Origin: Gigantopelta aegis
Lineage: Eukaryota > Mollusca > Gastropoda > Neomphalida > Peltospiridae
Direction of reading: 5' to 3'
Assembly (NCBI RefSeq): GCF_016097555.1
Contig: NC_054701.1
Location: 31,788,008-31,852,007, forward strand
Length of the DNA: 64,000 nucleotides
Position 1 is the first letter of the stretch; the number at the start of each line of letters is the position of its first letter. Position numbers and translations under genes: made by a program. The notes under the pieces are model-generated. The model ran no database searches, was not told the origin of the DNA, and was given only the letters and a program-made list of their open reading frames with translations. Shown here in pieces: positions 3,733-61,825 of this stretch.

Positions 3733-3799
3733 ATGGCTGAAGATTTACTTCCGCTGCTTGGAATTAATATTGAAGAAAACGAAAGTGACAGTGAAGATG
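3733..3799 (+). CDS. CRBN: CRBN exon 1
   Basis: Encodes [22 protein letters not shown] and ends in phase 1 at G|GTAATG. The start context AAAATGG is favourable. The overlapping longer frame that begins at 3578 is in another register and stops in the intron. Confidence 0.85.
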
Positions 3800-6103: not shown

Positions 6104-9100
6104 CATCTTAATGGATAGGAGAAAAATAATAATAATAGGTGTCTCAGTACAAATTGTGTATGTTTTGGTTGTGAATATTTTGGTTTGGGTATGTATTGAC
6201 CAGCTTCTGGATTATGACCTGTAATTTATAGCCAGAAGGAGGTGATGACCTCTAGCTGTGTCATGACTCTTTCCATGGATCCGTGCCTGTTATAGTTTGT
6301 ATGTACATACACTTTAGATTCCAATCATAGTGAACACGAAGGTGAAGAAATTGAGGAACATGTAGCCCAGCCAGAGAAGAAGAAAAAGTCTAAACAAGAC
6401 AAGAAGGCTGCAGCGGCACTCCCTCTGAAACAGACCTTTGATAAGTCACTCCCAGGAACACACTCGGTAAGTTATCCCCTGTTTATTAGTTTTATAGCCA
6501 AATCTTTTCACCATGTTGTTGGTCATAAAATATCAGAACTTAGAAAATTATTAATAATGTTATTGACATTTTTCCTTTTGTGATCATGTTTTTCAATGCA
6601 CAGTTTCACTAGATTAAGCTCATCAGTCTAATATCAAATAGTTTGAAATGATTAGCTTGTATTGTAACAGTGGATTTTTTCCCTCACATTCTAGATCAAG
6701 ACTATTTTATCATGCAAGGCATATGTATAAATCGTGGTGAATGGTTCACTTTTGATAGTAATAACCACTGATTACAGTTGCAGTCTCATCTTCCAATCCT
6801 GTGACATCTGACCTCCTCATTTTGTGACATCTAACTTCCTCATTCTGTGATATCTGACCACCTCATTCTGTGACATCTGACCACCTCATTATGTGACATC
6901 TGACCTCCTCATTCTGTGACATCTGACCTCCTCATTCTGTGACATCTGACCTCATTCTGTGACAGCTGACCTCATTCTGTGACATCTCACCTCCTCATTC
7001 TGTGACATCTGACCATTCTGTGACATCTCACCTCATTATGTGACATCTCACCTCCTCATTCTGCGACATCTCACCTCATCCTATGACATTTCACCTCATC
7101 TCACCTCCTCATCCTATTACATTTAACCTCATCTCACCTCGTCCTATGACATCTCACCTCCTCATTCTGTGACATCTCACTTCCTCATCCTATGACATAT
7201 CTCACCTCCTCATCCTATGATATCTCACCTCCTCATTCTGTGACATCTCACTTCCTCATCCTATGACATATCTCACCTCCTCATCCTATGATATCTCACC
7301 TCCTCATTCTGTGACATCTCACTTCCTCATCCTATGACATATCTCACCTCCTCATTCTATGATATCTCACCTCCTCATTCTGTGTCATCTCACTTCCTCA
7401 TTCTATGATATCTCACCTCCTCATCCTATAATATCTCACCTCCTCATCCTATGATATCTCACCTCCTCACCTCCTCATCCTATGATATCTCACCTCCTCG
7501 TCCTATGATATCTCACCTCCTCATTCTGTGACACCTCACTTCCTCATCCTATGACATATCTCACCTCCTTATTCTGTGACATCACCTCTTCATCCTGTGA
7601 CATCTCATAACCTCATCCTGTGACATCTGACCTCCTCATTCTGTGACATCTCACCTCCTCATTCTGTGACATCTCACCTCATCCTATGACATTTCACCTC
7701 ATCTCACCTCCTCATCCTATTACATTTAACCTCATCTCACCTCGTCCTATGACATCTCACCTCCTCATTCTGTGACATCTCATTTCCTCATCCTATGACA
7801 TATCTCACCTCCTTATTCTGTGACAACACCTCTTCATCCTGTGACATCTCATCACCTCATCCTGTGACATCTAACCTCCTCATTCTGTGACATCTCACCT
7901 CCTCATCCTGTGACATCTCACCTCATTATGTGACATCTCACCACCTCATTATGTGACATCCCACCTCTTCATCCTGTGACGTCTCACCTCCTCATTCTGT
8001 GACATCTCACCTCTTCATCTTGTGACATCTCCCCTCCTCAACCTATGGCATCTCACCTCCTCATCCTGTGACATCTCACCTCTTCACCCTGTGACATCTC
8101 ACCTCCTCATCCTGTGACATCTTACCTCCTCATCCTGTGACATCTCACCTCCTCATCATGTGACATCTCACCTCCTCATCCTGTGACATCTCACCGCCTC
8201 ATCCTGTGACATCTCACCTCATTATGTGACATCTCACCTCCTCATTATGTGACATCCCACCTCTTCATCCTGTGACGTCTTACCTCCTCATTCTGTGACA
8301 TCTCACCTCCTCAACCTATGGCATCTCACCTCCTCATCCTGTGACATCTCACCTCTTCACCCTGTGACATCTCACCTCCTCATCCTGTAACATCTCACCT
8401 CCTCATCCTGTGACATCTCACCTCATTATGTGACATCTCACCTCCTCATTATGTGACATCCCACCTCTTCACCCTGTGACATCTCACCTCCTCATCCTGT
8501 GACATCTTACCTCCTCATCCTGTGACATCTCACCTCCTCATCATGTGACATCTCACCTCCTCATCCTGTGACATCTCACCGCCTCATCCTGTGACATCTC
8601 ACCTCATTATGTGACATCTCACCTCCTCATTATGTGACATCCCACCTCTTCATCCTGTGACGTCTTACCTCCTCATTCTGTGACATCTCACCTCCTCAAC
8701 CTATGGCATCTCACCTCCTCATCCTGTGACATCTCACCTCTTCACCCTGTGACATCTCACCTCCTCATCCTGTAACATCTCACCTCCTCATCCTGTGACA
8801 TCTCACCTCATTATGTGACATCTCACCTCCTCATTATGTGACATCCCACCTCTTCATCCTGTGACGTCTTACCTCCTCATTCTGTGACATCTCACCTGCT
8901 CAACCTATGGCATCTCACCTCCTCATCCAGTGACATCTCACCGCCTCATCCTGTGACATCTCACCTCCTCCTCCTATGATATCTCACCTCCTCCTGTGAC
9001 ACCTGTTATCTCACCCCTCATTCTGCGACATCTCACTTCCTCATTGTGATATCTCACCTCAACCAATGGCATCTCACCTCCTCATCCTGTGACATCTCAC

Positions 9101-12100
9101 CTCTTCATTCTGTGACATCTCACCTGTGACATCTCACCTCTTCATGCTGTGACATCTCACCTCATCCTGTGACATCTCACCTCCTCATCCTGTGACATCT
9201 CACCTCATCCTGTGACATCTCACCTCCTCATTCTGTGACATCTCACCGCCTCATCCTGTGACATCTTACCTCATTATATGACATCTCACCTCCTCATCCT
9301 GTGACATCTCACCTCTTCACCCTGTGACATCTCACCTCCGCATCCTGTGACATCTCACCTCCTCATCCTGTGACATCTCACCTCATTCTGTGACACCTCA
9401 CTTCCTCATCCTATGACATATCTCACCTCCTTATTCTGTGACATCACCTCTTCATCCTGTGACATCTCATCACCTCATCCTGTGACATCTAACCTCCTCA
9501 TTCTGTGACATCTCACCACCTCATTCTGTGACATCTGACCTCCTCATTATGTGACATCTCACCTCCTCATTCTGTGACATCTCACCTCATCCTATGACAT
9601 TTCACCTCATCTCACCTCCTCATCCTATTACATTTAACCTCATCTCACCTCGTCCTATGACATCTCACCTCCTCATTCTGTGACATCTCACTTTCTCATC
9701 CTATGACATATCTCACCTCCTTATTCTGTGACAACACCTCTTCATCCTGTGACATCTCATCACCTCATCCTGTGACATCTAACCTCCTCATTCTGTGACA
9801 TCTCACCTCCTCATCCTGTGACATCTCACCTCATTATGTGACATCTCACCACCTCATTATGTGACATCCCACCTCTTCATCCTGTGACGTCTTACCTCCT
9901 CATTCTGTGACATCTCACCTCTTCATCTTGTGACATCTCCCCTCCTCAACCTATGGCATCTCACCTCCTCATCCTGTGACATCTCACCTCTTCACCCTGT
10001 GACATCTCACCTCCTCATCCTGTGACATCTTACCTCCTCATCCTGTGACATCTCACCTCCTCATCATGTGACATCTCACCTCCTCATCCTGTGAGATCTC
10101 ACCTCATCCTGTGACATCTCACCTCCTCATCCTGTGACATCTCACCGCCTCATCCTGTGACATCTCACCTCATTATGTGACATCTCACCTCCTCATTATG
10201 TGACATCCCACCTCTTCATCCTGTGACGTCTTACCTCATCATTCTGTGACATCTCACCTACTCAACCTATGGCATCTCACCTCCTCATCCTGTGACATCT
10301 CACCTCTTCACCCTGTAACATCTCACCTCCTCATCCTGTGACATCTCACCTCCTCATCCTGTAACATCTCACCTCATTCTGTGACATCTCACCGCCTCAT
10401 CCTATGACATCTCACCTCCTCCTCCTATAATATCTCACCTCCTGTGACACCTGTTATCTCACCCCTCATTCTGCAACATCTCACTTCCTCATTGTGATAT
10501 CTCACCTCAACCAATGGCATCTCACCTCCTCATCCTGTGACATCTCACCTCTTCATCCTGTGACATCTCACCTGTGACATCTCACCTGTGACATCTCACC
10601 TCTTCATGCTGTGACATCTCACCTCATCCTGTGACATCTCACCTCCTCATCCTGTGACATCACCTCATCCTGTGACATCTCACCTCATCCTGTGACATCT
10701 TACCTCCTCATTCTGTGACATCTCACCGCCTCATCCTGTGACATCTTACCTCATTATATGACATCTCACCTCCTCATTATGTGACATCCCACCTCTTCAT
10801 CCTGTGACATCTTACCACCTCATTCTGTGACATCTCACCTCCTCATCCTGTGACATCTCACCTCTTCACCCTGTGACATCTCACCTCCGCATCCTGTGAC
10901 ATCTCACCTCTGTGATATCTCACCTCTTCATCCTGAGACATCTCACCTCCTCATCCTGTGACATCATCTCCTCATCCTGTGACATCTCACCTCTTCATCC
11001 TGTGACATCTCACCACCTCATTCTGTGACATCGTATCCCCTCATTTTGTGACATCTCACCGCCTCATCCTGTGACACGTATGTTATCTCACCCCTCATTC
11101 TGTGACATGTCACCTCCTCATCCTGTGACATCTCACCTCCTCATCCTGTGACATCTCACCACCTCATTCTGTGACATCTCACCCCCTCATTCTGTGACAT
11201 CTCACCTCTTCATCATGTGACATCTCACCTCTTCATCATGTGACATCTCACCTCCTCATCCTTTGACATCTCACCTCCTCATCCTTTGACATCTCACCTC
11301 CATTCCTGTGATATCTCACCTCCTCATCCTGTGACATCTCACCTCATTCTTTGACAGCTCACCTCCCCATCCTGTGACAGCTCACCTCCTCATTCTGTGA
11401 CATCTCACCTCCTTATCCTGACATCTCACTTCCTCATCCTATAACATCTCACCTCCTTATCCTGACATCTCACTTCCTCATCCTATGATATCTCACCTCC
11501 TCATCCTGTGACCTCTCACCTCCTCATTCTGTGACATCTCACCTTCACGTCCTATTGCATCTCACCTGCTAATCCCATGGCATCTCACCTTCTCATCCTA
11601 TGATATCTCACCTCCTCATCCTGTGATATCTCATTTCTCCATCCTATGACATCTCACCTCCCCATTCTATGCCATCACATTTCCCATCCTATGACCTCTC
11701 ATATTCCCATCTTTTGACATTTCATTCCCCCAGGGAACATTTTGTTTTCAAAATCTTGATTAGCAATATTTCTAGTCAACTGAAAATTGATTAGCAAATT
11801 CTATTTAATGTTTTAAAATTGTGTAGCAATCTCTGAAACTTCCATATCGAATCACGACGCGATACTAAACAAAATGTTCCCTGCCTCCTCCATCCAGTGA
11901 CATCATAGGGAAAAATGTAATTACATAAATAATGCTTAAATATAAAAAAGTACATATCCTAAAATCAGCAGCTTTGAACTGTGTGTTGAGGTCTTGTTAA
12001 ACATTTGTTTCTCTCTTTTTTTCAGTACCTGGGTAATGACTTGGAGGACATAAGTGGTCGGACTATACATGACGATGACTCGCTTGTAATTCTGCCCCTC

Positions 12101-15100
12101 CTCGCTCTGCCAGGAATTGTTCCTATTCCAGGGTTCACCATACCTCTACACCTGTTCCAGCACCGCATGGTGGCTATGATTAAAACCATTGCGGAAAATG
12201 ACCGCACATTTGGGATTATTGATTACAGGTAACCACACTTGAAGCTGCAATCATGTCTCCTTATCGAAATAGTATTGTTTACTAAATGCAAAACACACCT
12301 ACAGTTTTAATACATTTTTGCAACACCTCCCCATCCTATAATATTTACTAATGCAAATGTTGTTTTTGTAGCCTTATTATTTTCACTACTGATGGATATT
12401 ACATGTAACTGTGTTGGAATAATTACAAGTCTTCTTGTCTTTTTTTAGCACATTGTTCAACTAAATAGTCATGAAGCATCCCTCTTTGAGAGTTTTTATA
12501 AAAGTTAACAATGTATTTTTATATTATTAAGATAAATAATGGCACTTTCAGGATATCTAAGAATGACATGAACTATGGAAAATTTTAATGTGGATGATCT
12601 GTTTTAAAAGGTAAATTATAAAGATATACTCCCGATTGCAATTTGCAGCTTTAAAGGCAGATAGCTCTACTTTATTTAAAAACTGAACAGCTACTTTGGG
12701 AATGGAATGTTCAGCTTTATTATTAGCTGATGAGATTCACCAAATACCTCAGTCATGTGACAACCTGGTTTAATGGACATCTTATATAACAAAACCCTGT
12801 ATATACTGATGCTTCAGATGTATTTCTTCTGTCCACAGAGATTACTGTTTTACCTCTGAATATCTTTATAGAAAGGTTCATCTGTCAAAATCTTTTTTTC
12901 TTTTTTTTTTCTTTATGTTGCCATTTGTTGTCGTACTTACAACACTGTAGTTTTAATATGTATTTTATTTGTTTTGGTATTTGGTTTTAGATACGAGACA
13001 GATGAATCAACAACATCACTGGCTAATCTTGGGACAACAGCCGAAATCTACTCAATAAAATATGAAACCGATGATGTAACAGGCAATTCAACTGTGAGGG
13101 TCAAGGCAAAGGGTCGACAAAGATTCAGAGTAATAGAGACACGTCGTGAGATAACTGGGTCAGTATCACTATGTTCACAGAAGTAAAGGATATAATGATC
13201 CACAGTTTTACTGTCGTAAACTGACAGGATTCAGTTTACACAAAGATTTTATTCTTATAAGACCATGGACATTATTTAACAGTGATGTTTTAGATTTATA
13301 TTACAAAAACTTTGTGTCACTTGCAAAAACTAACTTTTTGGGGACCATGGGCCTTCGTTCCAATCTTCAAATTGACAAGATCCAAATTTTCAAAAGACAT
13401 GTATGTAATCCTTATAAGATCAACTATAGTAGTCATTTTTAAATGTAATTTTGAAATATTTTACACCTGTTTTTAGTTATTGGTACATATTCCTGCCTTC
13501 ACATCCAATGTAGACAGGTCTACTAAAGACTAACAGTATATTATAGGGCATTTGAAAAAGCGTTTCGATCATAGAACTGAATTCCCTTAGCAGATTCATT
13601 GGGCTTTTTTCCATCTCGGCTAGGGCTTGTGACTTGTGTATCAAAGACCAAGATATGTGCTGTCCTGTTTATGGGAATACAAAAGATCCCTTGATCCTAT
13701 TGAAAAAATGTAGTGGGTTTCTTCTGAACATAATGTGTAAGAATTGTCAAATGCTTGACACCTAAAAGCCAATAATTAATTAATTAATTAATTTACTTTA
13801 GTAATTTAATTTTTTTTGGACAATTTATGCTATTAAATTAAATAATACTTCTGTGCACATTGTTAAATGTTAGCTTATTTATTTCAGAATATTGATGGGG
13901 AAAGTTCGTATTCTTCCTGAATGTGTTCTGCCTGACTGCCTGGAGGGAGCCCGGCCCCCATCACACAGAAAGTTCTGTTGTTCCCCACTCGACCAGGACA
14001 TGGTGGTGAAAACTGCAGTCGACAGGCGCGGCAATACACTCACCAGTGTTAACATGGTGGTTAATCGCCAGGTGAGACTCCACACCAGCCATCAGATTTT
14101 TAAAGTTATTTTAGTGTTACAATATCATAAAACCATTATAGGCTATGATGTCAATATGACACTCACCATAGCCTATGTCGGTTTTATGATATCACAGAGC
14201 CAAGATAACAGCAAAAATATGTGCTCAGATCTGTATTCATTTGTTTAACAATTTAGTAAGTTTAATCATATCTGTTTATATTTGCCAAATTATGTTTTTG
14301 AATTCTGATTCCATTATTCATGACATTTTTATTCGCTTATGTTCGAGAAAGCTTGTCCATTGGTAAGTCAAGTTTTTGCAGTCTTTAGAAAACCCATCTT
14401 TGACCTGGGCCCCGTTCCATGAAGCGATCTTAGCGCTAAGATCACCATAAATGCATAACTACCTAATGCACTTAAGATGATCTTAGTGCTAAGATCACTT
14501 CGTGGAACGGGGCCCTGGACTATAACCTAAAAATACTCTTCAGTCTGAGGAAGTGAGACTTTTGACATTTTTACCTACATGCAATTAAAAGATAAGAATT
14601 ATATATAAAATCAATATGAACAACAACAGTAATAAAAACAATATGAGTGTTCAGGTCAGATGGAGACACATTTATTCAACCAATTTGTATGAAGTATACA
14701 AGCATTGACCAGTTGTACATCAAGTTATTAATGTAAAAAAATATAACATGATATTTAGTTAAACATTTTGCACTGCTGCTAAAAACATCGTTATTATATA
14801 AATTACCAGTGATCAATAAGCATGTTAAACTTTATAATATGCATCTCATTTTTCAGCTGGATAAATTCAGCCCTGCCAACTTAACATGGTGGCCTCCATG
14901 GGTGTACAGAATGTATGATTCGGTTAGTATGATTTCATCATTGTTATCAGCTGTGATTATGGAAAGTATTTTAAATACAAATGTACTTGTCCTAAATAGT
15001 CTTTGGTCCATTATTAAATGTTTATTTTTAAATGTGTTTTTTTCTAAGAATGTATTCTGCTAGAATCCAGTTTATAGTTGTGTTTATTTTGTGATGATTA

Positions 15101-18100
15101 TACACACAGGTACCTACTTCCGTTCAAACATTGCTTACGTATATTTTTATGTCTTTCACCACCAAATACCTAAACTAAAATAACTAGTGGTAGGGTGAGG
15201 GTGCAGTAAAAAATAGAATCAGGGCACAGTAATATAGGGTCTTCTCCACCTAGAGGGGCGGGACGTAGCCCAGTGGTAAAGTGCTTGCTTGATGCACGGT
15301 CGGTCTGGGATCGATCCCCTTCGGTGGGCCCATTGGGCTATTTCTCATTCCAGTCAGTGCACCACGACTGGTATATCAAAGGCTGTGGTATGTACTATCC
15401 TGTCTGTGGGATGGTGCATATAAAAGATCCCTTGCTGCTAATCAAAAAGAGTAGCCCATGAAGTGGCGACAGCGGGTTTCCTCTCTCAATATCTGTGTGG
15501 TCCTTAACCATATGACATATGACGCCATATACCATAAACAAAATGTGTTGAGTGCGTCGTTAAATAAAACATTTCTTTTTTTCTTTCTTTCTCCACCTAG
15601 ATGTATTTAAACAAAACCCTTCTTCACATTTTTCTAGGTAGGAGAGACAACTGCTTCTCCCTAGGTAAGTCTAGCCCATCTGACCATTCATCCATCTAGT
15701 TGTGAATTTAGAATACTGAGTTTTGATGTTTTGGGTTTATTGGTTTCAGAGAATCTTGTGTGACAAGATCATACACGAACTACAGAGCTGGAACGACACT
15801 TTGAAAACAGAATCGTTCCCCCAGGATCCACTGGAACTGTCCTACTGGGTGGCTCAGAACCTCCCCCTTGATGACAGTATGAGACTCCACTTACTGAGTC
15901 TCAACTCCAAGGAGCAGCGTCTACGCTGTGAGCTAGATATCATGAAGAAGGTGAGAGGTTATACACAGATATTAATATCAATATTATATAGAATGGAATC
16001 CAAAGATCTTTAAAATACTGGGAATAATATTTTCCATTCATTTAGAAGATATGACATCACTGAACTATGAAGGAAAGGTTTTGGAAATACAGCAAATTAT
16101 AAACAAATGGATGAAGAGAGCAGGGGTGGGGAAAAGCCCTTTTTTGCCGGTCTCGGACCGATTCACAATTTTTGAGACCGAAATAATTTTTTGAAAACAT
16201 GTGTTTGCCGGTCCCACTTTTATTATTTTTTCGGTCCGAAGCGTCTGTCCATTTTTATTATTGGAAACAACTTTAATTTGTTATTGATGTTTCTGCAACT
16301 CATTACTTACCTACTTCACTAACAGGTGTTTATTTTGAGTCGTGATACATTTAAACCGGTCACACGTTTAATACAAATCAATCGGTCATGTTTTGTTTTT
16401 CTATCAATGACCGGAAATAGAAACGTTGAACACGGTGAATGAGCTATTTGTGTCACTTCTCAGTTTGTTCCTGCACAGGTGTCGATCGGTACACAATTAC
16501 AATAGGTTTAATTAAGTCGGCCAGTAATCTTTAATAGCACTGTGATCAAATAACAAAATAATTACATCAATGGGATTAGCACCAAAAACCGCAATGAACA
16601 GTCGGTCACAACCGGTCACGAGATTAAAGGTTTACTTATTAGCGATGATACCATTTATTGGTGATAATGAAGGAAGGACGTATGCTTTAATTAAAACAAA
16701 GACCTAGAGTTCATCTTTAATCAAAGGGGATACTATTTTTGCAAATATGAATACGCTGCAGGTATGCCTATACTTGTCGACAAAAACAACAACTTTAAGT
16801 TTAACGTATGTATACTGTTTTGGGAAGCAAAATGGTTTACATCGGTTGTCATACACAGTAGCTCAAGTTCAAGGTGAACCAATCAGCGTCGACGTTATTA
16901 ATCGTTCAGTCGGCAACTTCTATCAATAGTATCATTGAATTAGGTGTCAAGTTGGTTGTTCAACGACACTTATCAGGACGCGTCAATAAAACAATATAGT
17001 AAGGAACCATAGCATAATATGAAATGAATTAATATCTTCCTTATTAGAAACATCATTTAATGTACAGATAAGTAGGTGTTTTAATGTACGTTGAGGGATT
17101 GGGTGTACGTGCAGTCGGATATTTTACGAGCAGTAAAGTCCCGTAAAACGATAATAAACTATAAATTCATCAAGTAGGCCTATAAAATAGTTTTAAATTT
17201 TTTTTAACCGGGGTGGGGGGGGGGGGGGGGTTTAGGCTACTAATTATGTCATAGGTGGGACCGATTGGCAATTTTTATTTTCCCCACCCCTGGAAGAGAG
17301 TCATAACTCCACTTGGTAGAATTGCTATTTTGAAATCTCTATTGATATCAAAGTTAAACTACCTACTCCTAACTCTGCCAAATCCATCAGATAATTACCT
17401 GAAAAGTCTTAACAGAATCTTGTTCAAATTTCTGTGGAACAATAAGCCGGATCGAATTAAAAGAAAAATAATTTGTAAGACAATTAAGGATGGGGGTCTA
17501 GGAATGATAAATATCTGTTGTTATGTAGAAGCTCTAAAATTAACATGGATAAGGACATTATAGGGCGGGACGTAGACCAGTGGTAAAGCACTCGCTTGAT
17601 GCTAGGTCAGTTTGGGATTGATTCCCGATGGTGGTTCCATTGGGCTATTTCTCATTCCAGCCAGTGCACCACAACTGGTATTTCAAAGGCTGTGGTATGT
17701 GCCATCCTGTCTGTGGGATGGTGCATATAAAAGATCCTTTGCTACTTATGGAAAAATACAGCAGGTTTCCTCTCTAAGACTATATGTCTAAATTACCAAA
17801 TGTTTGACATCTGATTAATAAATCAATGTCTCTAGTGGTGTTGTTAAATAAAACAAATGAACTTTCACGTTTAGGTTACTAATATGGTCTGTTGGTCATA
17901 ACTTATTTTACTTTGTCTGTCTACAGTGCACCATGTTGCTGTGTAAGGACTGTGGTTTGCAGATCGCCAACAAGACGGATGTGTTCAGCATGTCCGAGGA
18001 AGGTCTGCTTGGGGCATTCGTCAACCCGGGTGGCTACGTTCACGAGACTCTGACCCTACACAGTGCACAAAATCTCTCTCTGATTGGACGCCCATCTACT

Positions 18101-18898
18101 GAGCACAGCTGGTTTCCAGGGTAACATATCTGACATGGATCTATTTTTAGGGTTTAAGATAAATGAAATTGTTAGCAAGAATGGTGAATTTTGTTTGAAA
18201 ATGTAGAACTGAATTCAGTTTGTATTACCAAAGAAAATGTACTGTTGCAATGGGTATAAGGTCCAGCAATGTTTTTTGCCTTTTTAGTTTCAGTGTGATA
18301 ATAATAAATAATAATAATAACTATAAAATTAAAAAAACATATTAAAAAAACATACTACGAATTGCCTTAGTTAACTTGAAAATGTTCTTAAATATAACAT
18401 TATTAGGCTATTTTTAAATAAAAAGATAAAAATAACTACTGATCCCCCCTCCCCGATTTTTCATTATCAAGTATTAAATAATCATGATAGACACCACATA
18501 GCCATAATTTAAAATGTGCTGATCTGTCGTTTTTCATCTCTCTTTTTTTCTGTTTGATTAAAAAAACCAAAAAAACCCTGACTATTTATTGACAATGCTC
18601 TAGAAAAGGTGGAAAAAAACTCCCTAAAATATGTGAGATTTACCTAAGTATTAAAAAACACTGAATGACACATTTAATTTTTCTACACATCTAATTATGA
18701 ATATTTTCTGCTGATTTTTATTTCAGTTATGCATGGACTATTGCTCAGTGTAAAAACTGTATGAGTCACATGGGATGGCGCTTCACAGCAACTGACAGGA
18801 AAATGAGACCCCAGAAGTTTTGGGGTTTGTGTCGCGGATCTTTGATCACTGGTATTCAGAATGCAGATGAGAACGAAGAATGGTCCCCAGTCATGTGA
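3733..18898 (+). CDS. CRBN: cereblon, complete nine-exon gene (467 aa)
   Basis: Substrate receptor of the CRL4 (DDB1-CUL4-RBX1) ubiquitin ligase. Coding exons: 3733-3799, 6318-6466, 12026-12228, 12991-13158, 13888-14071, 14857-14922, 15750-15950, 17927-18120 and 18727-18898. All introns are GT-AG and the total is 1404 nt. Residues 1-72 are acidic and lysine-rich. The LON-like domain follows, with GRTIHDDDS and LPGIVPIPG near its start, then GTTAEIYS and [10 protein letters not shown] helical, DDB1-contacting part contains ELQSWND and [11 protein letters not shown]. The C-terminal CULT domain has zinc pairs C352/C355 and C419/C422. The aromatic cage W408, W414, W428 plus F430 matches human W380, W386, W400 and F402. 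N379, H385 and H406 of the ligand pocket are also present. Human CRBN is 442 aa. Odd points: the human V388 position is Ile (I416), and the stop codon lies in a short degenerate repeat. The sequence is intact, so this is almost certainly a working gene. Confidence 0.97.
3989..4605 (-). mobile_element. TTAA-family DNA element fragment
   Basis: This is the reverse complement of parts of the element at 45351-46837. Landmarks are TGTTGGAAAGATGCATACC, CCTTACGGCTTATG, GATGGGAAAGTCTACTTAAT and CACCTGCCAATCAGGAATCAC, each with a close mirror in the 45-46.8 kb and 37.9-38.6 kb copies. It is diverged, and its far end is lost next to the retroelement. Confidence 0.75.
4674..5402 (+). CDS. uncharacterised ORF of a retroelement (about 242 codons)
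   Basis: A frame without stops that opens at a non-ATG codon, so the 5' end may be missing. The first in-frame ATG is near 4932. The N-terminal 110 codons are Pro/Ser/Thr-rich and look disordered, with several poly-Pro runs. The C-terminal 120 are compact: [20 protein letters not shown], then [38 protein letters not shown] and [22 protein letters not shown] content is far above that of its surroundings. The frame precedes a LINE-type 3' end, so an ORF1-like nucleic-acid-binding role is a guess. I recognise no named domain. The antisense frame over the same bases is a by-product of the GC-rich composition. Confidence 0.55.
   Translation: MIWTGTWIVTAISTVLLSASPPPPPGPDQPVPADADNSEQTEPVDQTTPQLDTAICETPRRATPVPTPSRRSASSPPPPGGSAKTPMDGAVAKRKAVTPPSSDQPAKARPSATDRGRDAAWSLAISKIKGQYARYLVGDTLDTSSLPGGILEGNFKKFPDGVECAIHAMELRDGKFGLVVTSCRDDLYRQGILFEDMDNYTIHRVLKIIASAQYVKIAKTLLAHRWRKLVPQFNAKHFISSP
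6066..6103 (+). repeat. (ATCT)n tail
   Basis: About nine tandem ATCT units at the 3' end of the retroelement, typical of the simple-repeat tails of some non-LTR elements. Confidence 0.9.
6318..6466 (+). CDS. CRBN: CRBN exon 2
   Basis: Acidic then lysine-rich: [15 protein letters not shown], then [17 protein letters not shown], ending [10 protein letters not shown] just before the YLG that starts the LON region. It enters in phase 1 after CTTTAG and ends in phase 0 at TCG|GTAAGT. Confidence 0.9.
6797..11726 (+). repeat. intronic minisatellite, about 22 bp unit, 4.9 kb
   Basis: Well over 200 degenerate copies of a unit close to CTCATCCTGTGACATCTCAC, filling most of CRBN intron 2. Variants (CATTATGTGAC, CAACCTATGGC, CATCCTATGAC) recur in fixed order, so there is higher-order structure. 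One block repeats about 384 bp apart (8153 and 8537) and another about 1.9 kb apart (7858 and 9776). In the CRBN sense the array is pyrimidine-rich with almost no AG dinucleotide. It is not a CRISPR array: there are no unique spacers and the host is eukaryotic. Confidence 0.97.
11731..11883. mobile_element. 153 bp MITE, family A copy 1
   Basis: It starts CAGGGAACATTTTGTT and ends AACAAAATGTTCCCTG, a perfect 16 bp terminal inverted repeat. Internal phrases (TTCAAAATCTTGATTAGC, AAATTGTGTAGC, AATCACGACGCGATA) recur at 58525-58655 and 59954-60107. It abuts the end of the minisatellite. Confidence 0.9.
12026..12228 (+). CDS. CRBN: CRBN exon 3
   Basis: First LON-domain exon: [37 protein letters not shown] and [10 protein letters not shown]. 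It matches the human YLGADMEEFHGRTLHDDDS region position by position. It enters in phase 0 after TTTCAG and leaves in phase 2 at CAG|GTAACC. Confidence 0.95.
12229..12990 (+). other. CRBN: CRBN intron 3
   Basis: An AT-rich intron in which I see no exon or complete mobile element. A short echo of the minisatellite unit (CACCTCCCCATCCTATAAT) occurs at about 12324-12342. A long T/C run precedes the acceptor at some distance. Confidence 0.6.
12991..13158 (+). CDS. CRBN: CRBN exon 4
   Basis: LON domain continued: [20 protein letters not shown], then [19 protein letters not shown]. It matches human FGTTAEIYAYREE and VKAIGRQRFKVLE. Phase 2 in and phase 2 out (GG|GTCAGT). Confidence 0.94.
13597..13795 (+). 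mobile_element. SINE, degenerate, 5'-truncated
   Basis: Contains ATTGGGCTTTTTTCCATCTC, ATATGTGCTGTCCTGT, AAAGATCCCTTG and AAATGCTTGACACCTAAAAGCC, in the same order as the better SINE copies. It ends in (AATT)n. The tRNA-like head is missing. Confidence 0.7.
13888..14071 (+). CDS. CRBN: CRBN exon 5
   Basis: Begins [16 protein letters not shown], matching human [13 protein letters not shown] divergent loop follows ([18 protein letters not shown], then [13 protein letters not shown]) that differs from the vertebrate linker in sequence. Phase 2 in, phase 0 out (CAG|GTGAGA). Confidence 0.92.
14407..14515. mobile_element. 109 bp fold-back MITE
   Basis: The outer arms begin GGGCCCCGTTCCATGAAGCG and end CTTCGTGGAACGGGGCCC. 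Each arm is about 38 bp and carries its own small palindrome (GATCTTAGCGCTAAGATC). It can form a nested hairpin. It lies in CRBN intron 5 and no coding content is seen. Confidence 0.9.
14857..14922 (+). CDS. CRBN: CRBN exon 6
   Basis: 22 codons, [20 protein letters not shown] plus DS. Matches human FHCANLTSWPRWLYSLYD. Phase 0 on both sides, acceptor TTTCAG, donor TCG|GTTAGT. Confidence 0.92.
15254..15590 (+). mobile_element. full-length tRNA-derived SINE (type B tail)
   Basis: The best reference copy in the window, about 335 bp. The head GGGCGGGACGTAGCCCAGTG carries the A box and GGTCTGGGATCGATCC the B box. The shared core (ATTCCAGTCAGTGCACCACG, GTGCATATAAAAGATCCC) follows, then ATATCTGTGTGGTCC and the tail GTGTTGAGTGCGTCGTTAAA with a T-rich end. 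It sits in CRBN intron 6. Confidence 0.95.
15750..15950 (+). CDS. CRBN: CRBN exon 7
   Basis: 67 codons: [20 protein letters not shown], then [20 protein letters not shown] and [14 protein letters not shown]. Matches human LREWDENLKDDSLPS and [13 protein letters not shown], the helical part between LON and CULT that contacts DDB1. Phase 0 on both sides. Confidence 0.95.
15990..17561 (+). mobile_element. LINE fragment split by a hAT element
   Basis: Two pieces (15990-16120 and 17293-17561) read as one continuous frame when the hAT element and one copy of its 8 bp target duplication are removed. The first includes [20 protein letters not shown] and ends KWMKR. The second includes [36 protein letters not shown] and [20 protein letters not shown]. 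This is the segment after the reverse transcriptase in L1/Tx1-like non-LTR elements. The 3' part is lost at the SINE junction. Confidence 0.85.
16121..17292. mobile_element. non-autonomous hAT element with 8 bp target duplication
   Basis: The ends CAGGGGTGGGGAAAA and TTTTCCCCACCCCTG are inverted. The flanks are GAAGAGAG at 16113-16120 and again at 17293-17300, an exact 8 bp duplication as expected for hAT. The 1,172 bp interior has no convincing transposase. It carries GGTCTCGGACCG-like phrases near the left end, mirrored as GGGACCGATTGGC near the right, and a G-run at 17211-17230. Confidence 0.93.
17562..17858 (+). mobile_element. SINE (type A tail)
   Basis: Head GGGCGGGACGTAGACCAGTG, core ATTCCAGCCAGTGCACCACA and GTGCATATAAAAGATCC, tail TTTGACATCTGATTAATAAA ending GTGGTGTTGTTAAATAAAAC. 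It abuts the broken LINE frame directly. Confidence 0.93.
17927..18120 (+). CDS. CRBN: CRBN exon 8
   Basis: First CULT exon. Zinc pair CKDC (C352, C355), then [14 protein letters not shown] with pocket residues N379 and H385, and [14 protein letters not shown] with H406 and cage residue W408. Phase 0 in, phase 2 out (CCAGG|GTAACA). Confidence 0.97.
18121..18726 (+). other. CRBN: CRBN intron 8
   Basis: 606 bp of AT-rich intron with homopolymer A and T runs. I see no exon, SINE or inverted repeat. Confidence 0.6.
18727..18898 (+). CDS. CRBN: CRBN exon 9 (C-terminal)
   Basis: [20 protein letters not shown] holds cage residues W414 and W428, F430, the second zinc pair C419/C422 and I416. Then [17 protein letters not shown] and an acidic tail ending WSPVM. 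The TGA is at 18896-18898. Confidence 0.96.
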
Positions 18899-21058: not shown

Positions 21059-21610
21059 TGACAGTCATTCTTCGCACCCTTGTTTTGGCTTCATACACAA
21101 TAAATATAACATCCAATGGTAATATTTTGATAGAAATAAAAAGTACCTTTTGTAAAATATATCATTTCATCTTTTAAAATTTAAACTTAATATTTTGTCC
21201 AAAATTATGAAAAATAAAAACATACTGACCTGAAAACAATGTCGTGAGCTGGTTATAGAATTTTAACAGGGGGTCAATGTTAGTAGACCAGTTTTTATTT
21301 TTACTATGGTGAAGCATTGTAATAGTACAGCTAATTTTTAATTTGAATGACGTCAGTATTCCAGTGACGTCACTTTATAGCTCCTTACAATAATAGTTTC
21401 CATTTTCAGAATGCTGGAAAAATTCCAATGCAAAATTGCTATTGAATTTATTTATTTTGGAACATTATTAGTGCACTGGATGTCTTTGAAGAAAATCTTG
21501 TAATTAAAAAATTGTACCATTTATAAAATTTGGTTTTCAAGTAAAATTGTGGTGAGGTATGCTATATTGATTGTGAACGAAGCCAAAACAAGGGTACGGA
21601 AAGTGACAGC
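21059..21610. mobile_element. 552 bp inverted-repeat element (MITE)
   Basis: The left arm includes CACCCTTGTTTTGGCTTC and CACAATAAATATA. The right arm includes TATATTGATTGTG and GAAGCCAAAACAAGGGT. The arms are about 47 bp with a handful of mismatches. The interior is AT-rich and non-coding. Confidence 0.88.
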
Positions 21611-22481
21611 CATCAACTTTAAATTCATTTGTTTTCATTAATTACATGGATTGAATAATTTGTTCTCAGTTTGTCATGAAAAAAAAATAATTCAAAAGTA
21701 ATATTTGAAATAAATTTGTATAACCAAACATAACCAAATTTAAATGTGAAATTATACATTATACATATATCATTGATTTATCCATATCAATTAAAACATG
21801 AAATGCAAGCAAACATGCATTTTATCAAAGATTAGACATGACAAAACTCTTTAATTTCCACACCTACTGCATTCTAACTTAAGTAGAATAGAAATTCGTT
21901 TGAACATTGTAAATATTATGATTAGTGAATGAAAAGCATTTTCTGTGATACACTGAGCATCTTCAAATATACACAAGAACTGTATGTTCATAGCCGAGTC
22001 ATTATTCTGTAAATTAGTTTAGCTGTAACATGACCCACTATTTTAGTAGTGGTTTGGTATGAAAGTTTAATATTGTGTTTAAAAAATGGTAGATGAATAT
22101 GATTGGGGGAAAATGCACATAGGCTAGTCTTTATACTGAAAATACGAACTGGAATTAAAACAAACAACATTTTGGGGAAGTTATTTATATAGAAGTAACA
22201 GAATTTTGGGTTTACACCATGAATGAGATTAAAAGTTGGTTGCTTATTTGATGTTGTGAAAAGGGGTGTTTGTTTGTGGGATTTAAAAAAAAAGAAAAAA
22301 AAGATTCAGTACTTGTTGGCAAGTTATATTTCTTTCCAGCTAGTTAGATTTCTTATATAGGCTATTTATATTTTGTATAATTATCATTTGTATAAACTAG
22401 TTTATGTTTCTCACAGGCTAGTACATTGAATTTTTTTGTTAAACCGTTAATAAAATAGAGAGAATTTTGAATTGGGGTGTG

Positions 22482-26595: not shown

Positions 26596-29500
26596 GTAGG
26601 GACCGCGTACACATTTCATATTCATTAGATAATATTCCATCATCCATGTTAAAATGACATTACTCAAAGAACAATTTGTATATCACAATGACTTAAAAAC
26701 ATGTCTGTTTTATATTTTTTGTTTTAAAATTAAAAATAGTTTTTGTGGAAGGGGAGGTAATTAATTTCGGCAAACTTTTACAATTTGTTAAAGGTACGCA
26801 CTCCTTCTGTCATGATGCTACTGTTGAAATTCAGTGGGTATCAGGTTGTTTTGTTCTTATCCAGATTCGCTCAGTGTGTGCCAAAATGTGAATGATATGT
26901 TATAATTTGTTTTTTCCACGAAACTTTTATAAATACATCCTTTTGAATGAATGAATGAATGAATGAATGTTTAACAACACCCCAGCACGAAAAATACACC
27001 AGCTATTGGGTGTCAAACTATGGTAAAGGCAAAATATGAAGTGATGATCAACATTAGTATAAAAATTCAATAGTCAAATAAAAACACAGTGTAAAGAACT
27101 GTACAAAAATATAAATATCACAGATAGATAAAATTAAAATTAACAATAAAAGTCAGTATCATACAAAAACTGTAATATAAGTTCTGGATGTAATCGAAAT
27201 GATTCCATCACAGATCGTTGTCCAAATATATCTTTTCTAGTTTCCTTGAGCTGAGTACACTCCACCAAAATGTGTACTGTCAGAAGACACTGACAGTACT
27301 CACACTGAGGTGGAGGATCATTCTTAAAGTTCAAGAGAAATGAATGGGTCAAGTACGTATGACCGATGTGAGCATTACAAAACTATTTCATCCTTCCTGC
27401 ACTGTCTATAGGAGGACTGCCACTCTCCCAAGACCAGCTTGATAGCATGAAGCTTGTTCGCAATCACACCATCCCAATCATGTTGCCAAGTTGAAAAGAT
27501 AAATTGGTTGATACTGTGTTTAAAATCAGTAAATTGACAGTATAAGGCACACCAACAGTGTTAATTACCCGGTAATCTTGACCAAAAATAATTGAAACCC
27601 TTAAAAACATTTCCACAATGTGGTTAGATATGTATTATGGTTATGGAGTGTTTTGCTGTAAGATCCAGCATTGAGACACAGATGCATGCACATCCGCACA
27701 CACACAGTTAAAAAAAATCTGCACACTACAATATTTTTTTTTAAATGTATTTTTACAACTTTAGCATCCATGTGATATATCTAGATTAGGTGTAGCTTAT
27801 GTTTGAGACATAACAATCACTGAATAAACAGTTTACTGGGGTGCCGTTAAAAAATATTTTCCAGGTAATATATTCAGACTTCTGGAAAAATGTAAAAAAA
27901 GAACTGGAAAATGAACCAAAATGGTGCTTAAAAGTCTTGGAAAGTGAAAATGTTTTAAGTGTATGAACCCTGAACACATCCTTTTGAATGATACTTGGGA
28001 TGATTAAAATCCAGCACTGCTGAATCCTGTAATATATTTAGAATGCAGAATAATGTGAATGTTTTTAAAGATTTAAAATTATTACTGATTACTTGCTGTA
28101 ATTCATTTGTGCAATTACATATAAATATTTGTTCTGGTATCGTCTCTTTTTTTTTCTTTTTCTTTTTCTTTTTTCCTTTTTTTTTTTCACCAAGGAGCCA
28201 ATCCTAATGTCTAATAATCCAGATCAAAAGTTTAATATTTTCATTCATTTTGTTTGTTCTTTGTAGATCCAATGGTGAAGCTAATGATGAGAGCCCTGAA
28301 AAGCCGTGGATGGTATATTTAGTTTATTTTATACACGTTGTACACAAACACACACACACATGCACACAAACACACACATATATACACACCTACAATTCTT
28401 TGTTGAATAATTCACTACTAATATGAAATGCTTATTAATAATATATAATTATAGGCAGTTCAGTTGATTAATAACTTGAGTGTTTGTAAGTTTGTGAACT
28501 TATTTTGCAGTGAGGTAAATTTAAGACGTCACATCTCTTGTGAGAAATGTTTGCAGAGAGTTAATGGTGGCTTTGATCCAACTACTAGTCAGGTATGTTG
28601 TAAAATTTATCAGAATTTAATATTACTCATCCAATACTTAACAAATACAGAATTTTATGCATTACAGAAATTATGTGGAATTAAATGCCTCACCTATCAT
28701 ACCAGTAAACTGTTTTTCTTTGCTTCATTAATAATTTAATTTAGCTAGTCTGAAAAAAAAACCCTGTTAAAAGATTACAATGTTTCTTTAGTTTGCCTTA
28801 AGATCCACAAGTATAACTGTCTTCAACTTTTATTGATCTAGTACTTAAAGTTTGTGATAAAAAGTTACGGTAAAACTAAATGCAAAGTCTGTATAATTTT
28901 CACCATCATCAGAAAAGTAAAAGTAAAGTTTGTTTTGTTTAACAACATCACTAGAGCACATTGATTTATAAATCATCAGCTATTGGATGTCAAACGTTTG
29001 GTAATTTTGACATAAGTCTTAGAGAGAAAACCCACTAATTGTTTTCCATTAGTTGCAAGGGATCTTTTATATGCACGATCCCATAGATAGGATAGCACAT
29101 ACCACAGTCTTTGATATACCAGTCGTGGTGCACTGCAATAACGTGAAATAGCCCAGCAGTGTTTCTGCCAAAAATGTTTTTTTGGGATATGGCGCTATAA
29201 AATTGAATGCAACCATAGTCAACATCCTTACATCTCCCCATTGAGCTGTTAACACTGCATCTGGATGGGAGGTGAAACTAGGATGAGAACCCCAAAATTA
29301 CCTGATTTAAGTCCAGTAGCTTGACAACTATACTAAGCTTGTAACCAATGCTTGAGTAATTGGTATAAATGGTGTAATGGTTAAGTCAGTGGCTTTAAAG
29401 CTGTTAGTTCTGAGATAGTATCCTAGAGTGTGTTTACTGCAAAGTGCTGAGGTGCAGGTCTGCTTCTTTCACAAATCATTACTCTGGACAGACAGCAAGG

Positions 29501-40415: not shown

Positions 40416-61825
<21,410 letters not shown>

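Follow-up and report, generated by a model that had tools for sequence, protein, structure and literature searches.

The cereblon gene (CRBN) of the gastropod Gigantopelta aegis, contained in a 64,000-nucleotide stretch of contig NC_054701.1 (the window, C3:31788008-31852007), encodes an isoleucine, I416, at the position of human Val388, a site linked to specificity towards the immunomodulatory imide drugs (IMiDs). Cereblon is a CRL4 substrate receptor that recognizes glutarimide drugs. The reading that we favour, and hold as a whole to be very probable, is that of a cereblon with a predicted ligand-binding CULT domain, with a long-standing isoleucine at this site, and with a poor disposition to pair with the neosubstrates of the classical IMiDs. 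An initial annotation of the same DNA had drawn attention to this isoleucine; its interpretation is partly supported by the analysis presented here, which included searches of the genome to which the window belongs (a 1.149-Gb assembly of 5216 contigs).

Gene model and domain architecture

The model built from the window DNA comprises nine exons on the + strand with 467 codons plus a stop in a single open frame; all eight introns are of the GT-AG type, and the window holds no N. The exons and the codon of interest are as follows.

3733..3799, + strand: CRBN exon 1, ATG at 3733; open reading frame (ORF) plus GT donor, inferred by frame
6318..6466, + strand: CRBN exon 2, second half covered by the human CRBN alignment
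12026..12228, + strand: CRBN exon 3, where the LON domain begins; in the human alignment and within Pfam LON_substr_bdg on the spliced protein
12991..13158, + strand: CRBN exon 4, in the human CRBN alignment
13888..14071, + strand: CRBN exon 5, in the human CRBN alignment
14857..14922, + strand: CRBN exon 6, in the human CRBN alignment
15750..15950, + strand: CRBN exon 7, in the human CRBN alignment
17927..18120, + strand: CRBN exon 8, with C352 and C355 (first zinc CxxC), N379, G381, H385, E405, H406 and W408
18727..18898, + strand: CRBN exon 9, last coding exon, with W414, I416, C419 and C422 (second CxxC), H425, W428, F430 and the stop
18740..18742, + strand: codon ATT of I416 (= human V388), from the gene model and the human alignment

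Frame and splice signals, together with what we take to be a likeness to the acidic N-terminal region of human CRBN, place exon 1 and also the first half of exon 2. Residues 38-459 of the spliced protein align with human CRBN (E 1.1e-121), and Pfam recognizes LON_substr_bdg at 95-346 (1e-21) and Yippee-Mis18/CULT at 349-449 (7.2e-8), both above the curated cut-off. The protein combines, as expected of a CRBN orthologue, a LON-like domain at its N-terminus with a CULT domain after it, and the gene in the window is an ordinary animal CRBN orthologue. The segment 18727..18898, to which the initial annotation had assigned the isoleucine, is exactly the last coding exon; its acceptor tttcag runs up to 18726 and its stop codon TGA occupies 18896-18898. 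Exon 8 ends at 18120 within a split glycine codon (GG, then T), and across the junction HSWFPG is followed by YAWTIAQC in the same frame.

Isoleucine 416 and its surroundings in the CULT domain

In the alignments to human CRBN chains, which run ungapped from VNP to FWGL, I416 stands opposite the valine of human YAWTVAQC (V388); the numbering of the model (Y412 A413 W414 T415 I416) is the same as in the initial annotation. The homology of the two residues holds in these alignments; since the exchange of Val and Ile is mild and common, I416 by itself carries little information beyond it. The claim of a complete CULT pocket likewise holds: N379, H385, H406, W408, W414, W428 and F430 are all present, together with the zinc cysteines C352, C355, C419 and C422, and the tryptophan cage of human W380, W386, W400 and F402 corresponds to W408, W414, W428 and F430. 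Several of these residues (C352, C355, N379, H385, H406 and W408) are encoded in the exon at 17927-18120 and not within 18727-18898. Judging from this conservation, the three-tryptophan cage of the domain would accommodate glutarimides and C-terminal cyclic-imide degrons; that cereblon recognizes C-terminal cyclic imides has been reported (PMC11974815).

The G. aegis protein shares with human CRBN the LON plus CULT architecture, the zinc cysteines and the tryptophan cage, at 61% identity across the CULT stretch, but has Ile416 and Gly381 where the human protein has Val388 and His353. The exchange at H353, absent from the initial annotation, is a second difference on the neosubstrate-facing surface. 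Human E377 is conserved as E405, which leaves one of the residues of the human IMiD-responsive type matched (Glu377) and two unmatched (Val388 and His353).

The Magnetospirillum protein MsCI4 (PDB 4v2y, wild type) resembles the G. aegis domain in its tryptophan cage, its zinc cysteines and the isoleucine at the aligned site, but differs in consisting of a CULT domain only, in being 40% identical and in having Phe in place of CRBN His357 and His378. A further Magnetospirillum chain, PDB 6r0q_A, departs from 4v2y at several places, including NPHG and a valine at the site; it gives the impression of having been engineered towards the human sequence, and the pair offers a ready-made comparison for the effect of Ile or Val on ligand binding. 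Another chain, PDB 8a22_Xd (mL123), matched the CULT stretch weakly (E 0.13).

Consequences for neosubstrate recruitment

The parallel drawn in the initial annotation with mouse cereblon, in which the same isoleucine blocks degradation of IKZF1/3 and CK1alpha, agrees with the literature. Mouse CRBN (I391) is reported to bind the drugs but not to recruit IKZF1/3, ZFP91 or CK1alpha (PMC6156078, PMC7046148, PMC10285648); with V388I, degradation of IKZF1, IKZF3, ZFP91 and CK1alpha is reportedly lost, as is that of SALL4 in human cells (PMC7046148). If the mouse protein is a guide in this respect, Ile416, with its bulkier side chain, would clash with the zinc-finger and CK1alpha degrons that classical IMiDs present, and pairs of such drugs and degrons would be expected to be poor in G. 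aegis. Glues or degrons relying on other contacts could still work.

From this block the initial annotation had predicted ligand binding without recruitment of the human neosubstrates. The prediction fits the proteins named above, but as a general statement it is too broad, because loss of GSPT1 degradation is tied to E377V, a position at which G. aegis keeps Glu, and because mouse CRBN degrades PDE6D. In PMC7046148 the abolition of GSPT1 degradation is ascribed to E377V and not to V388I. With the compound FPFT2216 in mouse cells, PDE6D was still degraded in a CRBN-dependent manner; the same work describes a much smaller drop of CK1alpha in proteomics and no CK1alpha degradation by western blot (PMC10285648). 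In the mouse line CT26, the two GSPT1 degraders tried in that work were without effect. Evolved or designed zinc-finger degrons are functional with mouse CRBN (PMC11203266, PMC10285648), though a further designed degron brought about no more than modest degradation in mouse cells (PMC12645437). The loss of PDE6D and the mouse-active degrons indicate that the isoleucine acts as a filter for some pairs of degron and drug and not as a general block.

Mouse CRBN is an incomplete guide in another respect. It shares the isoleucine with G. aegis but carries Val in place of human E377 (PMC7046148), where G. aegis has Glu405; human CRBN in turn has His353 in place of Gly381. Since Glu405 is kept and His353 is replaced, neither mouse nor human cereblon is an exact guide to the G. 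aegis protein. In docking, H353 lies next to the 6-position substituents of drugs and to residues of the neosubstrate (PMC10439208), and it is also packed against an evolved degron (PMC11203266). The glycine at this place may shift the glue preference of G. aegis CRBN.

The state of position 388 among animals

According to Donovan 2018 (PMC6156078), the site holds Ile in mouse, rat, greater bush baby, zebrafish and chicken, and Val in human, in the sensitive non-human primates and in rabbit. Zebrafish and chicken thus share the isoleucine with G. aegis but are, unlike it, vertebrates. The mouse and chicken states are taken from the literature and not from alignments of our own: in PDB searches directed at mouse and chicken, every chain among the matches listed had Val at the site. 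All five non-mammal animal sequences at hand have Ile (the G. aegis gene, zebrafish, chicken and two further sequences of the assembly on contigs C1572 and C7, described below), zebrafish and chicken being read from text and the C1572 and C7 sequences being of uncertain origin or type.

Parsimony by hand on the usual mammal tree, applied to primates, rodents and rabbit, requires two changes to Val (in higher primates and in rabbit) if Ile is older, and three changes if Val stood at the base of primates, rodents and rabbits. An older isoleucine among animals is therefore supported and fits both the species in print and the G. aegis gene, in a comparison of few species. Most likely, the isoleucine at the V388 site is a long-standing animal state that persisted in mollusc, fish, bird and rodents and gave way to Val in some mammals. 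The suggestion in the initial annotation that Ile is ancestral is upheld to this extent; its second half, a change to Val towards primates, is not, because rabbit has Val and the bush baby has Ile. Among 64 mammalian CRBN sequences, Onodera 2019 names position 366 as positively selected, and conservation of CRBN in insects and plants is noted in PMC12531867. Our literature search found no paper combining cereblon, mollusc and thalidomide. Isoleucine outside primates is already in print, and G. aegis adds one consistent mollusc data point.

Bacterial relatives and findings that weigh against this reading

A scan of genome contigs for a bacterial outgroup gave 47 stretches matching a pattern, 12 of which encode a relative; two scans of viral contigs gave no relative. 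The bacterial loci, and several other points, count against the favoured reading of a long-standing isoleucine that makes for poor IMiD response. At the aligned site the 12 loci have Ile in six cases, Val in four, and Ala and Tyr in one each. One of the two search patterns includes [IV] at the site, and a separate count was made for the nine loci found by the pattern that does not span it: here four have Ile, three Val, one Ala and one Tyr. One of the Ile loci (L004) hardly differs from the Magnetospirillum protein, and the bacterial rows are for this reason not all independent. Given this variation, the bacterial outgroup does not fix the ancestral state. Molluscs, moreover, are represented by a single species, G. 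aegis. On the side of function, PMC6156078 notes reports of defective limbs or fins in zebrafish and chicken after thalidomide or after knock-down of Crbn; as both bear Ile, the residue does not cleanly predict insensitivity. Finally, the glycine in place of His353 could shift the glue response either way. As to the source of L004, it was found in a metagenome-assembled genome labelled Stygiobacter, and its nearly identical Magnetospirillum counterpart makes a mis-binned contig likely.

Alternative readings

A bolder form of the favoured reading joins three statements: that Ile-388 has been the default of animal CRBN since before the bilaterians; that I416, G381 and E405 give the G. aegis protein a specificity unlike that of mouse or human, poor for IKZF1/3 and CK1alpha and open to GSPT1-type or other glues; and that Val-388, with classical thalidomide sensitivity, is a repeated late change in mammals. 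Taken jointly we regard these as tentative, with somewhat less than an even chance of all being right.

Alternatively, the specificity of the protein may be explained by a neosubstrate surface of its own, in which Ile416, Gly381 and Glu405 together define a set of glues unlike that of either human or mouse CRBN. G381 and E405 are read directly in the sequence, the reported contacts of H353 (PMC10439208, PMC11203266) place it near drug substituents and an evolved degron, E377V abolishes GSPT1 degradation (PMC7046148), and the G. aegis genome has a GSPT1-like exon with a glycine loop (see below); in the 12 bacterial CULT loci, on the other hand, the H353 place is taken by Ala, Ser or His, and this position may be tolerant too. 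We consider this account possible but doubtful.

It is unlikely, in our estimate, that position 388 is a drifting site tolerant of Ile and Val, at which the isoleucine of G. aegis says nothing about ancestry or selection. The exchange of Val and Ile is a mild one. Drift would also accommodate the Ile, Val, Ala and Tyr of the bacterial CULT domains and the differences among mammals, with rabbit set apart from mouse and the bush baby from other primates (PMC6156078). Against it stand the five non-mammal animal sequences, all with Ile, though five are few and two of them uncertain. A mis-assembled last exon or a CRBN pseudogene is most improbable, as no point in support was found and the window is free of N, its nine exons are open with GT-AG introns, the CULT stretch is 61% identical to human, and the genome search (best candidates scored) found a single place with 93-98% identity, namely that of the window.

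Other CULT sequences and neosubstrate-like loops in the assembly

The own-genome protein search, with the best candidates scored, returned six matches: two exons of the window, two on C1572, one on C7, and L021, which was dropped (E 0.265, internal stops). A genome search with the Pfam Yippee-Mis18 model gave three places, the window not among them. The 33-kb contig C1572 carries a second CRBN-like gene at 21593-21991 (L022, L024-L026), which reads YQWTI. Its CULT intron is about 60 bp long, and that of the window gene 606 bp; by eye its frames look shifted in places, and at the N351-P352 place its own frame reads IL and the frame one base over VNP. The CpG observed/expected ratio is 0.33 for C1572, 0.52 for the window and 0.44 for the C7 stretch. 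We take the C1572 gene to stem probably from another animal and not to be a paralogue, and its source to be, at a guess from gene style, sponge-like; its GC content (0.33-0.36) does not help the case for foreign origin, because it is like that of the window (0.354). The contig also carries an ankyrin-repeat ORF. On C1146, at 27179-27572 (L044, L045), lies a compact copy of PDE6D with about 40 bp between its two matches and with internal stops, while a second, spread-out copy lies on C15; the style of the compact copy is like that of C1572, and it perhaps has the same foreign source. The C7 sequence (L023, 3385-3459, at about 34.6 Mb) is a lone CULT exon reading WTI, with Ile at the V388 place. 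Lupas 2015, which aligns CULT domains of zebrafish, fly, worm, plant and others, describes a secreted animal CULT group, to which this exon, the single one found, may belong.

Loops resembling those of human neosubstrates were also found in the own-genome searches. CK1alpha-like matches carry a glycine loop as INITSGEEV (L027) or INISNGE (L030), with NGE also in L029 and L031. A GSPT1-like exon (L032) keeps the glycine loop DKKSGEK, and a weaker match of the same search (L033, 34% identical) has DRRSGKK. At least two human neosubstrate loops thus exist in G. aegis, and their recruitment would depend on CRBN. The zinc-finger search, in which the best 150 of 2685 candidates were scored, gave 114 matches at 37-50% identity, among which an IKZF orthologue is not distinguishable from other C2H2 fingers. 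The PDE6D search matched query residues 41-144, a stretch without the Gly28 loop.

Other features of the window

Units of 23 bp and their multiples, repeated in tandem over nearly 5 kb (6796-11701), take up much of CRBN intron 2. Two similar copies of what by eye is an apparent tRNA-derived short interspersed element lie in CRBN introns, at 15253-15590 and 17564-17860. Outside the gene, a DnaJ-domain exon (2150-2551, - strand, Pfam 1.4e-20) is found upstream of CRBN, and an ORF at 48038-48946 (+ strand) encodes a Tc5/pogo-type DDE transposase (Pfam DDE_1, 1.1e-20).

Implications

It was already known that several animals have the isoleucine and that it hinders recruitment of the classical neosubstrates (PMC6156078, PMC7046148). 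If the favoured reading is right, G. aegis would add an invertebrate point to the species differences relevant to thalidomide safety testing and to animal models for degraders; degraders that work through CRBN may behave differently in invertebrates, and position 353 would deserve attention beside 388. The part most worth keeping is the combination of I416, G381 and E405, which would make G. aegis cereblon a test case distinct from that of the mouse.

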